Below, in pieces: positions 20,382 to 62,604 of a stretch of 64,000 bases of DNA (the first letter of the stretch is position 1; every line of letters starts with the position of its first letter). The stretch is taken from assembly GCA_022821085.1 (NCBI GenBank), contig JAJEEG010000006.1:2501330-2565329 (forward strand), in the 5' to 3' direction. Source of the DNA: Candidatus Latescibacterota bacterium. Its GTDB lineage: Bacteria; JAAXHH01. The notes beneath the pieces were generated by a model that worked only from the letters and a program-made list of their open reading frames with translations, ran no database searches and was not told the origin of the DNA. The translations under genes were made by a program, and so were the position numbers.

Positions 20382-20709
20382 TTGAGCCGTGAGGGTTCCT
20401 CTTCGTGCAACTCACGGCCGTCCGGCAACCGAATCCGGGCCGGGACATTGACTATACCGGGAATCGCAGTACGAATATCTGGTATGGGAAATGTACCAAT
20501 TGTTTCCGTCTTGGAAACTGTTGTAATGATTCAAAAGGATAAGACCGGGAGTATCCCGTTGCAAGGTATTTTTGTGACCGTGCGTGAGTACCCGCGAAGC
20601 CTCGACCACTTCAAAATTGACACGGATCGCCTGCTTCCGAGTAGCGGTCCTATCTGCACATTAGTCTCGGATCGCCAGGACACGGATCGCCTGCTTCCGC
20701 TTAGCGGTC
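20382..20709. other. 328-base gap with repeated gene end, no gene seen
   Basis: Between the aminotransferase-fold gene and the binding-protein gene, both on the minus strand, I see no plausible coding region. The right-hand part is occupied by the 60-base tandem repeat described separately. The remainder (20382-20620) must contain the promoter of the binding-protein operon, but no strong consensus promoter was recognised. Confidence 0.5.
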
Positions 20710-20740
20710 CTACCTGCGCATAATACTCGGATCGAACTCG
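20621..20740. repeat. 60-base tandem repeat duplicating the 3' end of the class V aminotransferase gene
   Basis: 20621-20680 and 20681-20740 align over about 54 bases with about 7 mismatches, sharing CACGGATCGCCTGCTTCCG at their left ends. On the minus strand the right copy contains the gene's end DPSIMRR plus TAG and trailing sequence, and the left copy reads DPRLMCR plus TAG followed by nearly the same trailing sequence. The left copy is therefore a diverged second copy of the gene terminus. The TAG and the bases after it are the best-conserved part. Confidence 0.75.
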
Positions 20741-22119: not shown

Positions 22120-22196
22120 AAGACTCCCCTGGTCGTTGAGATTGCCGGCATCCTCTATCCGGAACCTCGGTATCAGAGCGGTGTTATTTCAATAAT

Positions 22197-22221
22197 GCGC
22201 GATAATACGCTTTTGGACTTG
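22197..22221 (+). repeat. left terminal inverted repeat of the transposon
   Basis: Identical over 25 bases to the reverse complement of 24810-24834. Its inner end supplies the first three bases of the -35 box of the transposase promoter. Confidence 0.92.
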
Positions 22222-22247
22222 ACAAGGGTTCCGGTTCATGGTATATT
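22219..22247 (+). promoter_or_regulatory. near-consensus promoter for the transposase operon
   Basis: TTGACA at 22219-22224 and TATATT at 22242-22247 are separated by exactly 17 bases. The -35 box overlaps the inner end of the left inverted repeat, so binding of transposase to the end could repress transcription. An AAGGAGA ribosome site precedes the ATG at 22293. Confidence 0.8.
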
Positions 22248-22292
22248 GTAGGTAAGAGCAAAGGAAACCGACAACCTACAAGGAGATACGCC

Positions 22293-23180
22293 ATGAACAT
22301 CCTCGAACTCTTTCAGACCTTCCAGACGCAGGAACAATGCCTTGATTACCTGGAAGCCATCCGCTGGCGCGGCGAGCCGCAATGTCCGTACTGCGATAGC
22401 AAGAAGGTATGCCGTCATGCCTCAAACGACCGTGCAAATCAACGCTGGCAATGCCAGGACTGCCACAAGGCATTTGCCGTTACGGTCGGGACGATCTTCC
22501 ACCGGACGCACAAGCCCTTGCAACAGTGGTTCCTGGTACTGGCCCTTATGCTGAACGCCAAGAAGTCCGTTTCCAGCCATCAGATTTCCAGAGACCTGGG
22601 GATTCGCCAGCCTACCGTGTGGAGCATGATGCACCGCGCCCGCGTGGCGATGGCGGTAGACCAGAAGGCACAGGAACTGTTGTACGGGATCGTGGAGACC
22701 GACGACGCCTTTATCGGCGGCAAACCCAAGAAGCCGAACAAGAAGTCCGACCGCAAGGGCAAACGCGGACGCGGTACGGAAAAGACCTGCGTGATCGGTG
22801 CGGTAGAACGGGGCGGTAAAGTGAAGGCACAACCCGTTACCGAACTGAACAGCACGAGCATCAGCGAGTTTCTGAGCAAGACGGTGGACACGGTCGGGAC
22901 GATGGTGATGGCCGATCAGTTGCCCGCCTACAACAAGCCCTTGGGGGCGTTCGACAAGTCCGCCCGTATCGACCACAGCACGCAGTACGTGGACGGGATG
23001 ATCCATACCAACACGATTGAAGGCTTTTGGTCGTTGGTCAAGCGGGCGTGGTACGGAACGCACCACCAGTACAGCGTCAAGTTGATCGGGTTGTATATCT
23101 CGGAATCGTGCTTCAAGTACAACCACCGGAAAGCACATAGCCTGTTCGACTACTTCGTGGCCAGGGCGGTGTCGATATGA
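22293..23180 (+). CDS. IS1595 family transposase (ISXO2-like)
   Basis: 295 residues. The N-terminal zinc ribbon has CPYC (31-34) and CQDC (54-57). A helical DNA-binding segment follows, then the ISXO2-like catalytic domain with ETDDAFIGG (135-143), MVMADQLPAYN (204-214) and HTNTIEGFWSLVKR (238-251). These supply the first two acidic residues and the N-x-x-E...K end of the D-D-N-K type triad found in this family. Length and motif order are complete. The gene has a strong promoter and ribosome site inside the element and overlaps the passenger gene by ATGA, so both proteins are made from one message. Confidence 0.92.
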   Translation: MNILELFQTFQTQEQCLDYLEAIRWRGEPQCPYCDSKKVCRHASNDRANQRWQCQDCHKAFAVTVGTIFHRTHKPLQQWFLVLALMLNAKKSVSSHQISRDLGIRQPTVWSMMHRARVAMAVDQKAQELLYGIVETDDAFIGGKPKKPNKKSDRKGKRGRGTEKTCVIGAVERGGKVKAQPVTELNSTSISEFLSKTVDTVGTMVMADQLPAYNKPLGAFDKSARIDHSTQYVDGMIHTNTIEGFWSLVKRAWYGTHHQYSVKLIGLYISESCFKYNHRKAHSLFDYFVARAVSI

Positions 23181-24763
23181 ACCGACTTTTCTACGGAGAC
23201 AACCTGCACGTTATGCATCAGTTGATGGGAAGCCTTTCGGTGGATCTGATATACCTTGATCCCCCGTTCAAATCGAATCGTAATTACAACCTGATGTACA
23301 GTCGCCGGATCGGACGCCCGATACCCGAACAGGAAGAGGCGTTTTGCGATACCTGGGAAATGGATTCCAAGAAGCGGGAACTCGCAAAACAGATGCCCGT
23401 ATTCATGCGGAAACACGGAGTCGATGAGTACTACGTCCGGTTTTGGAAATACTGGATGGACGCCCTGATAAACACGCAACCGAAGTTGCTGGCGTACCTT
23501 GTGTACATGGTGCAGAGACTGATGTACATGAAGTTGATTCTGAAGCCTACAGGATCGATATATCTTCATTGTGACCCTGAAGCCAGCCACTACATCAAGG
23601 TGATGATGGACGCGATTTTCGGGCATGACAACTACCAGAACGAAATCGTCTGGAAACGTACCAGTGCCCACAGTGACGCAAAGAAACTCGGTGCTGTCCA
23701 TGATGTGATTTTTCACTACTCCAAAAGCGACCGATTCAAACGCAATCGCTTGTTTGCTCCGTATGCCGATTCGTACATCGAAAAGCGGTACAGGAACAAG
23801 GACGCGGACGGCCGGCGGTGGATGAGTGCGCCGATAACGGCCAAGGGGCTTGCCGGTGGCGGATACAGGTACGAGTACCGCGGCGTAGAAGACGACTGGC
23901 GTGTCCCTCTTGCCAGGATGCAGGAACTGGATGCAAACGATGACCTGCACATAACCAGGACCGGCGGTCTCCGGTGGAAGAAATACCTCGATCAAATGAA
24001 GGGCGTTCCTATCAATGACGTATGGACGGACATACCGCCGTTAAACTCGCAGGACAAGATGCGACTGGGATTCCCTACGCAGAAACCGCCGAATCTGTTA
24101 AGGCGTATTATCGAGTTATCGACCGACCCAGGGGATCTTGTCTTTGATCCGTTTTGCGGTTGCGGTACGGCCGTCTACGCGGCGCATGAAGCGGGAAGGC
24201 AATGGGTCGGGTGCGATATCGCAATCCTGGCCGTCCGATTGATCGAAGACCAGTTAGGTATCTGGTACAACCTGGAACGGAAAACAGACTACGAGACGAC
24301 GGGCATTCCGAACAGTGTCGAATCCGCCGAACGCCTGTTCCGGCAGGACCCGTTCCAGTTTGAACACTGGATAGTTGAACAGGTAGGCGGGTTTCCGACC
24401 AAGAAGACGGGCGACAAGGGCGTGGACGGCGTGATGTACTACGATATGGATGATGGGGAAATGGGGAAGATGATTTTCAGTGTGAAGGGTGGACACATTC
24501 GGCCGTCTGACGTTCGAGACCTGGAAGGTACGCGGTCGGTTGACGGGATCGCACACATAGCAGGGTTTATTTCGCTACGTGAACCAACAAAGGCCATGCG
24601 CCAGGCGGCGGATGATGCTGGTAAATGGCACTACAAGGGCGAGATATACGACAGGGTGCAAATGCTCACTGTCAAAGAAATCGTGGAAGACAAGCGGTTG
24701 TTTCGCACTCCTACTCGGGTTCAGTACCGAGACGACCACTTGCAACAGTCGTTGGGGTTGTGA
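23177..24763 (+). CDS. site-specific DNA methyltransferase fused to a PD-(D/E)XK-like nuclease domain
   Basis: 528 residues. The N-terminal part is an amino-methyltransferase of the beta arrangement: catalytic motif IV LIYLDPPFKSNRNYN with DPPF at 28-31, a central variable region of about 170 residues likely to read the DNA, and SAM motif I as VFDPFCGCGTAVYAA (322-336). From about residue 395, FEHWIVEQVGGF, GDKGVDGVM and IFSVKGGHI give a D...S-x-K pattern that resembles Mrr-type restriction nucleases, with serine in place of the usual E or Q. Such a fusion could both modify and cut DNA, like a type IIG enzyme. It lies within the transposon and is coupled to its transposase. Confidence 0.8.
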   Translation: MNRLFYGDNLHVMHQLMGSLSVDLIYLDPPFKSNRNYNLMYSRRIGRPIPEQEEAFCDTWEMDSKKRELAKQMPVFMRKHGVDEYYVRFWKYWMDALINTQPKLLAYLVYMVQRLMYMKLILKPTGSIYLHCDPEASHYIKVMMDAIFGHDNYQNEIVWKRTSAHSDAKKLGAVHDVIFHYSKSDRFKRNRLFAPYADSYIEKRYRNKDADGRRWMSAPITAKGLAGGGYRYEYRGVEDDWRVPLARMQELDANDDLHITRTGGLRWKKYLDQMKGVPINDVWTDIPPLNSQDKMRLGFPTQKPPNLLRRIIELSTDPGDLVFDPFCGCGTAVYAAHEAGRQWVGCDIAILAVRLIEDQLGIWYNLERKTDYETTGIPNSVESAERLFRQDPFQFEHWIVEQVGGFPTKKTGDKGVDGVMYYDMDDGEMGKMIFSVKGGHIRPSDVRDLEGTRSVDGIAHIAGFISLREPTKAMRQAADDAGKWHYKGEIYDRVQMLTVKEIVEDKRLFRTPTRVQYRDDHLQQSLGL

Positions 24764-24809
24764 ACGGATCGCCTGCTACTGGTATGATACGCGATCCCGT
24801 GGCAACCCA

Positions 24810-24834
24810 CAAGTCCAAAAGCGTATTATCGCGC
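24810..24834 (-). repeat. right terminal inverted repeat of the transposon
   Basis: The exact reverse complement of 22197-22221. It is directly followed by AATAATGC, matching the left flank at 22191-22198. Confidence 0.92.
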
Positions 24835-24942
24835 AATAATGCATCCTTGACTGGGCAATTTACAGTTTTACACTTTGGATACCCAGAACATTCAAGACTG
24901 CGGAGAACTTCAGCAAATACCTACCGGAAAAGAGCACCATCC

Positions 24943-25626: not shown

Positions 25627-26435
25627 GCGAGAAAACTCGCGACCGGGGACCAGCGCCGGACTCGGACACCCGGGGACGCGCGCCCAATTCGCACGACCGG
25701 GGACCAGCGCCGGACTCGCGCGACCAGGGGCCCTGTCCCGATCCGGACAACCTGGATCCGGACAACCTGCACCGGGCGACCATCGCGTATTACGACCTGC
25801 GCCAGGTCCACGGGGACATGCCGCACAAGATCCCCCGGGGGCCCGCGCCTGATCTGCCCGCCGAACAGGCCCGGATGGTCCGGGAATCGCAGGAGGCCAT
25901 GCGGGGCCGGAAGGTGCTCGAGGTAGCGAGCGGCACGGGGTCGGCGACCCGGGAAATCGCAGAAACCGCCGTGTCTGTCACGGGGGTGGAGATCGCTCCC
26001 AACATGCTGGAACTGGCCGCGAAAAACGACAACCCGACCAACGTCAGTTTTCTGGCCGGTGATGCCTTCGACCTTGAATCCGTCGCGCCGGGCAGGCGTT
26101 TCGACGGGGGTTTTGCGGCAGGATTCCTGCACACCTGCCCTTCTTCGAGGTATACGGAGTTTCTGAACGGCTTCCACGCCCGGCTCGAGGAGGGTGCTGT
26201 CGTGTTCATGCGATCGTCCAGACCGACCAGCCCCGACGCGGTGAGCAGGCTTTTCAGGGTCAAAGGCCACGAGGACCAGTTCATGACGCGTCAGTTATCC
26301 GATGGTTCCGAGTACATAATGGTGGAAAACGACCCGACTGAAGATGACTTTAGACGCGTTTTCGAACCCATGACCAGGAACCTGGACATACACATCGGAA
26401 ACTACTGGTGGTGGATACGGTACGAGTTGCCCTGA
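25623..26435 (+). CDS. class I SAM-dependent methyltransferase with repetitive N-terminus
   Basis: 270 residues, translationally coupled to the previous gene. The first 50 residues are low-complexity, alternating RDRGPAPDS-type and DPDNL units, and are encoded by exact DNA repeats. The catalytic part begins near ATIAYYDLRQVHG. SAM motif I is KVLEVASGTGSATREIA, motif II is VTGVEIAPNMLELAAKN, and the phosphate-binding segment is FDGGFAAGFLHTCPSSRY. The core fold is convincing. The N-terminal stretch may be a linker or a spurious extension if a later non-ATG start is used. It probably acts with the neighbouring methyltransferase and GNAT. Confidence 0.78.
   Translation: MSEKTRDRGPAPDSDTRGRAPNSHDRGPAPDSRDQGPCPDPDNLDPDNLHRATIAYYDLRQVHGDMPHKIPRGPAPDLPAEQARMVRESQEAMRGRKVLEVASGTGSATREIAETAVSVTGVEIAPNMLELAAKNDNPTNVSFLAGDAFDLESVAPGRRFDGGFAAGFLHTCPSSRYTEFLNGFHARLEEGAVVFMRSSRPTSPDAVSRLFRVKGHEDQFMTRQLSDGSEYIMVENDPTEDDFRRVFEPMTRNLDIHIGNYWWWIRYELP
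25640..25769. repeat. direct repeats in the methyltransferase N-terminal coding region
   Basis: A 25-base unit beginning CGACCGGGGACCAGCGCCGG occurs identically at 25640-25664 and 25694-25718, a 54-base or 18-codon period. Directly after, ATCCGGACAACCTGG and its near-copy form a 15-base tandem pair near 25741. Both periods preserve the reading frame. Confidence 0.85.
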
Positions 26436-61269: not shown

Positions 61270-62604
61270 ATGCGTCTATTACTTAACCTGGTCGGAGTCG
61301 GTCTGCTTGTTGCCTCGGCATACGCATGCAGCGCTCAGGAGGTCACGTTTATGCGCGACGGAATGGGTCACGTGGAAAAAACCCAACAGAGATACGCGGT
61401 GGATGGGGCCGGCACGTTGACCGTGGATACCGACTTCGGCTCGGTCCGGGTCGAAAGCTGGTCCAACGACGAAGTGGACGTCGAGGTGGAAAAACGGCGG
61501 ACGGGTATCAGCGAAGACAGCGCCCGGGACGCCTTCGATGAAGTGTCGGTGGATATATCCCAACAGGAAAACGACGTCGACATCCGGATAGAGCGCGATC
61601 GGAAATACGGGAACGAAGGAATATCGGTGGATATACGGGTCAGGGTGCCGGAAACGTACAGCCTGGACCTCAAGACCTCGGGCGGCGATATCGATGTCGG
61701 AGACCTGCGGGGCGACGTACTTGGCCGCACCTCGGGCGGAGATATCAACGTGGGCAACGTGACGGACGCGGTGATCCGGGTTCACACTTCGGGTGGAGAT
61801 GTGAGTATAAAGGGAGGCGGCACGGAGACTAAGGCTTCCACCTCCGGCGGGGATATCGAGATCCTGAACGCCCGGGGCGCGGTGGATGCATCTACCTCGG
61901 GCGGTGACGTCACCATCGGCGACGCGGCCGGCGAAGTGTCGGCCAAGACTTCGGGCGGCGACATCACGATTGGCCGTACGGACGGCGAAGTGACGGTGAG
62001 GACTTCCGGCGGCGATATCGAAATCGACCAGGCCGGAGGAAACACGGAGGCGACTACCTCGGGCGGCGACATCAGGATCGGCCATACCACGGGAGAGGTG
62101 AAGGCGAAGACTTCGGGCGGTGATATCTCGATCGAGCGCGCCGACGGCGAGGTGGATGTGCACACCTCGGGGGGCGACGTCACCATCGAAAGCGCCGAAG
62201 GCAGATTGAAAGCGGGCACCTCGGGCGGCGACATTGCGATCGGCAATGCGACGGGCGGCGGCGTGACGGCGAAGACCTCGGGCGGCGACATCGAAGCCGG
62301 TTTGACGGCGACGGTTAGCGCGCTGGAGGAAGACTGGTTGCTGCAATCGTCCGGAGGGGAGCTGACCATACGCATTCCAGAGGATCTGCAAGCCTCGCTC
62401 GAAGCGGAGATCAAAATCGGGAGTTCCTGGTTCGGACGCGACAAGGAATATCGTATCGATTCTGATTTCAACCTGGACGAGCAGGACGATGGCGGCCGTA
62501 ACGGCAAGACGATAAGGGCCACGGGCGATATCAACGGCGGCGGCCATCTCATCAGGCTGAAGACGAGCGATGGCGATATAAGGATTCGGAAAGTGTCGTC
62601 CTGA
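61270..62604 (+). CDS. exported DUF4097-like protein with TSGGD repeats
   Basis: 444 residues from the second of two adjacent ATGs, which has GGAGG 4 bases upstream. The signal peptide ends near SAYACSAQE, where a cysteine might also mark a lipoprotein. The N-terminal domain (about 25-130) is related to that of the preceding protein. Then come 12 copies of an 18-residue unit with TSGGD-(I/V)-x-(I/V), for example KTSGGDITIGRTDGEVTV and RTSGGDIEIDQAGGNTEA, followed by a C-terminal region with QSSGGELTIRIPEDLQAS. This forms a long predicted beta helix. The two genes are probably one operon from a tandem duplication. Confidence 0.82.
   Translation: MRLLLNLVGVGLLVASAYACSAQEVTFMRDGMGHVEKTQQRYAVDGAGTLTVDTDFGSVRVESWSNDEVDVEVEKRRTGISEDSARDAFDEVSVDISQQENDVDIRIERDRKYGNEGISVDIRVRVPETYSLDLKTSGGDIDVGDLRGDVLGRTSGGDINVGNVTDAVIRVHTSGGDVSIKGGGTETKASTSGGDIEILNARGAVDASTSGGDVTIGDAAGEVSAKTSGGDITIGRTDGEVTVRTSGGDIEIDQAGGNTEATTSGGDIRIGHTTGEVKAKTSGGDISIERADGEVDVHTSGGDVTIESAEGRLKAGTSGGDIAIGNATGGGVTAKTSGGDIEAGLTATVSALEEDWLLQSSGGELTIRIPEDLQASLEAEIKIGSSWFGRDKEYRIDSDFNLDEQDDGGRNGKTIRATGDINGGGHLIRLKTSDGDIRIRKVSS
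61665..62310 (+). repeat. 54-base tandem coding repeats in the second DUF4097-like gene
   Basis: Twelve copies of an 18-codon unit, each containing ACCTCGGGCGGCGA or a close variant. The period is kept throughout, with only small length changes. Confidence 0.85.

Follow-up and report, generated by a model that had tools for sequence, protein, structure and literature searches.

The 64,000-nucleotide stretch of contig JAJEEG010000006.1 analyzed here, from a Candidatus Latescibacterota bacterium and hereafter called the window, contains a complete, recently inserted transposon of the IS1595 family whose passenger gene is coupled to the transposase gene and encodes a DNA methyltransferase fused to a nuclease-type domain. 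In our assessment, with a probability of about 0.58, this element carries a single-chain enzyme of the restriction-modification (RM) type. A previous examination made from the letters of the window alone, hereafter the sequence-only reading, had pointed to this element and to the two halves of its passenger; most of what it described stands, with corrections to the ends of the element and to the meaning of one residue in the nuclease motif.

The element occupies positions 22198-24833 of the window (2636 bp). The sequence-only reading rightly called it intact, with boundaries (22191-24842) that have to be moved inward. Its ends are perfect terminal inverted repeats (TIRs; CGCGATAATACGCTTTTGGACTTG), identical at 24 of 24 positions and mismatched at base 25, so that they measure 24 bp and not 25 bases as first proposed, and they are bordered by a perfect direct repeat, the target site duplication (TSD), which was formerly estimated at 6 to 8 bases and has a length of exactly 8 bp (CAATAATG). 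Perfect repeats of 24 bp enclosed by a perfect 8-bp duplication do not arise by chance, and a chance or mis-called repeat is further excluded by the empty site found in relatives of the same genus. Indeed, in these genomes the two genes flanking the element, coding for an aminotransferase and for a methyltransferase of the small-molecule type, adjoin without it, and CAATAATG is present in a single copy; in one of them (G010) the empty site reads TTATTTCAATAAATGCATCC, to be compared with TTATTTCAATAATGCATCC, which is what the window gives once the element and one repeat are removed. Relative to these genomes the locus is a clean single insertion, and the empty site provides indirect evidence for transposition of the element. 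The G+C content of the element is 54%, versus 62% for the remaining window. Searching the genome for further copies with identical ends, as the sequence-only reading had advised, returned this end pair once and no other copy.

Regarding the transposase, the IS1595 assignment holds, since the protein scores above the cut-offs of PF12762 (119 bits for a cut-off of 27, E=1.8e-34), of the zinc ribbon PF12760 (40 bits for 25.4, E=3.5e-10) and of NF033547 (177 bits for 75), with residues D137, D208, N240, E243 and K250 invariant in an alignment of 11 relatives. The element thus combines an ISXO2-like/IS1595 transposase bearing a zinc ribbon with TIRs and an 8-bp TSD, as expected for this family. Upstream of the transposase gene lies a promoter-like site (Table 1), whose TTGAC box is present in most homologous left ends and absent from the right ends; the element therefore likely has a promoter based in its left end. 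The start codon of the passenger overlaps the stop codon of the transposase in an ATGA (23177-23180), a coupling already noticed from the sequence, and 7 of 10 related elements retain a stop/start overlap of this kind, either ATGA or GTGA.

Table 1. Features of the IS1595 element and of its target site, in window positions.
Feature	Position	Strand	Remarks
Target site duplication, left copy (CAATAATG)	22190-22197	.	same as 24834-24841
Left terminal inverted repeat (CGCGATAATACGCTTTTGGACTTG)	22198-22221	+	24 bp, perfect
Promoter-like TTGACA-N17-TATATT	22219-22247	+	begins within the left TIR, at its inner edge
IS1595-family transposase, 295 aa	22293-23180	+	zinc ribbon, then DDE domain
Passenger, 528 aa: beta-class amino-methyltransferase and PD-(D/E)XK (Mrr-like) domain	23177-24763	+	PF01555, AlphaFold2, Foldseek
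Variable target-recognition region, about residues 159-294	23651-24058	+	identity among homologues
C-terminal domain, predicted PD-(D/E)XK fold, residues 374-528	24296-24760	+	E401, D417, S435-x-K437, D448
Right terminal inverted repeat	24810-24833	-	24 bp
Target site duplication, right copy (CAATAATG)	24834-24841	.	same as 22190-22197

The methyltransferase part of the passenger (residues 1-370) matches PF01555 with 143.6 bits (cut-off 26.7, E=1.1e-41), and the motifs follow each other in the order DPPF (28-31), PTQKP (300-304) and FDPFCGCGT (323-331), continued in the C-terminal domain by GDKGVDG (412-418) and FSVKGG (434-439). The AlphaFold2 model of the protein has a predicted local distance difference test score (pLDDT) of 83 and is matched by Foldseek to EcoP15I Mod, M.BceJIV and M.RsrI. 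By its motifs, by PF01555 and by its fold, the passenger is hence a beta-class amino-methyltransferase, complete as the sequence-only reading had stated. A DPPF motif points to N6-adenine methylation, and N6-adenine is probably its target.

The fused C-terminal region, likened to Mrr-type nucleases in the sequence-only reading, is predicted to adopt a PD-(D/E)XK nuclease fold. Modelled alone by AlphaFold2, it reaches a pLDDT of 87.5 and displays the succession helix, strand, strand, helix, strand; two AlphaFold2 models together with Foldseek rule out an unrelated fold. Against the PDB, Foldseek retrieved EcoO109I, MspJI and FokI with probabilities of 0.91-1.00 (0.97-1.00 for EcoO109I and MspJI) and a best E-value of only 1.5e-3, while against BFVD it retrieved phage proteins annotated as restriction endonucleases, with E-values of about 1e-4. 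A search of PDB sequences using the C-terminal profile gave no match. Matches to sequence families are weak and consistent: NA-iREase1 is matched by all 27 aligned domains and Mrr_cat (PF04471) by 26 of them. The 21-bit cut-off of Mrr_cat is passed by a related passenger (L050, 25.4 bits) and by a related lone gene (L055, 27.0 bits).

This two-gene unit is found well outside the phylum. With the passenger as query, units bearing the core end TACGCTTTTGGACTT, which the left TIR of the present element shares with homologous elements of other phyla, were identified in Alphaproteobacteria (L013, L014, L015), in Nitrospira (L017) and in a contig binned as Paceibacterota (L016), with exact 8-bp TSDs in L013, L014, L015 and L017. 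Four viral contigs (L065, L066, L074, L076) also carry the fused passenger and this core end; three of them (L065, L066, L076) offer the passenger and the right end only, their left side being cut by the contig or having no recognised left end. Every complete close element encodes the fused protein and none a plain methyltransferase, contrary to what the sequence-only reading had envisaged as a possible outcome; one further element is fused and interrupted by a stop codon (L018) and another is cut by the end of its contig (L088). The finding is limited to one clade and its neighbours and does not extend to IS1595 elements at large: when 80 IS1595 transposases of viral contigs were scanned, the fused passenger accompanied the closest ones only, the others having a different passenger or none that was recognised. 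As to different passengers, one IS1595 transposon (L202:1228-2136) has a gene for a P63C-domain protein beside the transposase gene, and another (L228:3405-7151) has one for a protein that looks P63C-like by eye, followed by a methyltransferase gene.

Fused homologues also occur alone, without a transposase, in temperate Streptomyces phages (Likavirus) and in plasmids of several phyla, and it would thus appear that the transposon captured, or donated, a pre-existing type of enzyme. The Likavirus homologue L070:3974-5629 (gp47 of Streptomyces phage Ejemplo) and its relatives are full-length methyltransferase-PD-(D/E)XK proteins, 41-43% identical to the passenger, which are annotated only as DNA methylase and are encoded beside an integrase gene. 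The methyltransferase domain is found as well without the nuclease (L091, L095), and an ApaLI-family endonuclease is the partner of a distant relative (31%).

Closer to the window, a transposase-only search of the organism's own genome disclosed three full-length IS1595 transposases and a fourth match that is a degraded fragment. The two remaining full-length loci, missed by the sequence-only reading, encode the same type of methyltransferase, here followed at the C-terminus by a fused HNH nuclease whose motif is complete (E=4.9e-11 for L043 and 2.0e-12 for L044). L043 (G000:C1:2315254-2317851) possesses ends, an 8-bp duplication and two genes oriented towards each other; at L044 (G000:C1:2362.6-2364.9 kb) the genes follow each other, and terminal repeats were looked for there and not found. 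Among genus relatives, L047 carries a methyltransferase-HNH fusion with TIR and TSD, though with a frame break, and L050 is a divergent methyltransferase-Mrr fusion with a QxK motif, which is also present in the alphaproteobacterial homologue L014. In relative G002, an IS1595 element whose ends and 8-bp duplication are present (L204:594-3181) has a plain methyltransferase accompanied by a second gene, whose 218-residue product belongs to no known family, contains a D...LSVKST stretch and may possibly be a separate endonuclease. Short or decayed derivatives sharing the same end core were also seen in genus relatives (L045, L051, L062), one of which (L045:3681-4967, 1287 bp) is devoid of transposase and preserves no more of the nuclease domain than a broken remnant. 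For the methyltransferase-HNH protein, the scan of viral contigs gave no match and no plasmid record covering at least 80% of it was found. Two unrelated nuclease folds, PD-(D/E)XK and HNH, are therefore found at one and the same place of a shared architecture, which is hard to explain if the domain is an inert appendix.

Whether the C-terminal domain cuts DNA is the point on which an RM-type enzyme has to be weighed against its most serious rival, namely a passenger that amounts to a solitary methyltransferase, with a C-terminal nuclease fold that no longer cuts and is a module for additional DNA binding or dimerisation. Several observations weigh on the side of this rival. Serine occupies the (E/Q)xK position in this copy, as in 32 of 40 homologues, the top Pfam match of the domain is NA-iREase1, a family of inactive restriction endonucleases, and the passenger itself falls just below the cut-offs of both NA-iREase1 and Mrr_cat (for the latter 16.3 bits over the full length and 19.6 bits for the domain). 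Moreover, a pure modification role is also possible for the lone fused genes of Streptomyces phages and plasmids. The sequence-only reading had rightly seen the serine and had taken it as leaving the cutting activity in doubt; its distribution alters this doubt, as a residue shared by 32 of 40 homologues looks like the norm of the family rather than a lesion of this copy. Against a solitary methyltransferase, D417 and K437 are invariant in all 40 homologues, glutamine (6) or glutamate (2) naturally occupies position 435 in the other eight, and the unrelated HNH nuclease stands at the same position in sister elements. In addition, 30 of the 32 forms with serine have an acidic residue at position 448, versus 5 of the 8 others (one-sided Fisher p=0.046, uncorrected for relatedness), so that the acid may have moved. 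Cfr10I/NgoMIV-type enzymes likewise use an SxK motif with an acid further on; by analogy, the acid at 448 would fit such a displacement, which we regard as a lead only. On balance, we consider a solitary methyltransferase unlikely.

The conservation of the element bears on two further rivals, in which the passenger would serve transposition. Among 10 passengers linked to the insertion sequence, mean pairwise identity amounts to 79% and 77% in the catalytic parts of the methyltransferase and to 65% in the nuclease domain, falling to 37% in the recognition region, and such a pattern, in which the specificity changes fast and methyltransferase and nuclease are conserved, is that of RM proteins. 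The distances of transposase and passenger agree (Mantel r=0.86, permutation p=0.0016, n=9 elements); both genes therefore travel together. Such co-inheritance and the tight coupling to the transposase would also be expected if the methyltransferase marked the ends of the transposon to time or limit transposition, or shielded incoming copies from host restriction, the nuclease being secondary. The control of IS10 and IS50 by Dam is an established precedent. However, the ends of the elements are nearly constant, with the core TACGCTTTTGGACTT in all, so that one family with so variable a recognition region is unlikely to read all of them; methylation of the ends is thus disfavoured as a shared purpose. 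With the same protein existing without transposase in phages and plasmids, a methyltransferase at the service of the transposon appears improbable. Finally, that the nuclease directly aids transposition or spread, for instance through cuts in target replicons or donor DNA lacking the mark, whose repair would then benefit the element, is in keeping with nuclease-type domains of two folds being carried beside the transposase, but DDE transposases need no partner nuclease, the TSDs are AT-rich and otherwise dissimilar, and no evidence connects the places of insertion with a methylation motif, which makes this proposal very improbable.

If the passenger is an RM-type enzyme, as we favour, its methyltransferase would use its own recognition region to identify a short DNA site and would methylate this site, probably at the N6 of adenine, and the fused PD-(D/E)XK domain would cut DNA bearing the same site in unmethylated form. 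A single promoter starting in the left end would serve both genes, with the start of the passenger coupled to the stop of the transposase. Through this mark-and-cut system of its own, the element would protect the host from unmarked DNA, its loss may be penalised, and transposition would spread the methylating and cutting activities as one unit. The autonomous modification and cleavage, and the addiction-like advantage, put forward in the sequence-only reading would follow from the same scheme. A broader proposal, in which such IS1595 elements form a class of self-mobile, one-gene RM systems, with a beta-class methyltransferase whose recognition region changes rapidly and which is coupled to the transposase, an exchangeable PD-(D/E)XK or HNH module at its C-terminus, and a benefit in immunity and possibly in addiction, is more tentative and we would give it slightly less than an even chance.

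Elsewhere in the window, the genes on either side of the element have short tandem repeats close to their ends (60-bp unit, 1.9 copies, at 20619-20734; 27-bp unit, 3.3 copies, at 25640-25730), and a 54-bp tandem repeat in 5.4 degenerate copies is found at 61897-62188.

RM genes are often located near mobile elements, and a short DDE transposon able to move them within one transposase-coupled gene would explain how they spread and also why their sites change so fast. With this element one could test directly whether carrying a mark-and-cut enzyme is of advantage to a transposon, and chains in which a nuclease of either of two folds follows a beta-class methyltransferase could represent a new group of enzymes, if active.

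Passenger genes are known in transposons of the IS1595 family, such as tISCpe8 and MTnSag1, which are designated tIS (Siguier et al., 2009, as cited in PMC5704250 and PMC7986276). The present element shares with them an IS1595-type DDE transposase, TIRs, an 8-bp AT-rich TSD and an extra gene between the ends, and differs in having, as a passenger coupled to the transposase, a fused methyltransferase-nuclease. In the open literature searched, outside of which stand ISfinder, REBASE and Siguier et al. (2009), no methyltransferase or methyltransferase-nuclease passenger of IS1595 is reported. Type IIG enzymes likewise unite a methyltransferase and a PD-(D/E)XK nuclease in one chain with its own specificity, in the order nuclease (N-terminal), methyltransferase and specificity (C-terminal) (PMC4389544); unlike them, the passenger starts with a methyltransferase of the beta class whose recognition region is internal, and has its nuclease last. 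EcoP15I Mod, M.BceJIV, M.RsrI and CcrM, which are Type III Mod or Type II beta-class N6-adenine methyltransferases, resemble the passenger in fold, in methyltransferase sequence and in having motif IV before motif I, but they are devoid of a C-terminal nuclease, and the element has no Res helicase gene. Regarding the nuclease half, Mrr-type (Type IV) domains, MspJI and EcoO109I share with the C-terminal domain its fold and the D...xxK core, with QxK or ExK in place of the SxK found here, where the partner is a methyltransferase and not a reader of modified bases. Passengers of IS1595 and single-chain methyltransferase-nucleases of Type IIG are hence known already, and it is the fused passenger within an IS1595 transposon, together with the position of the nuclease at the end of the chain, that distinguishes the element from them.
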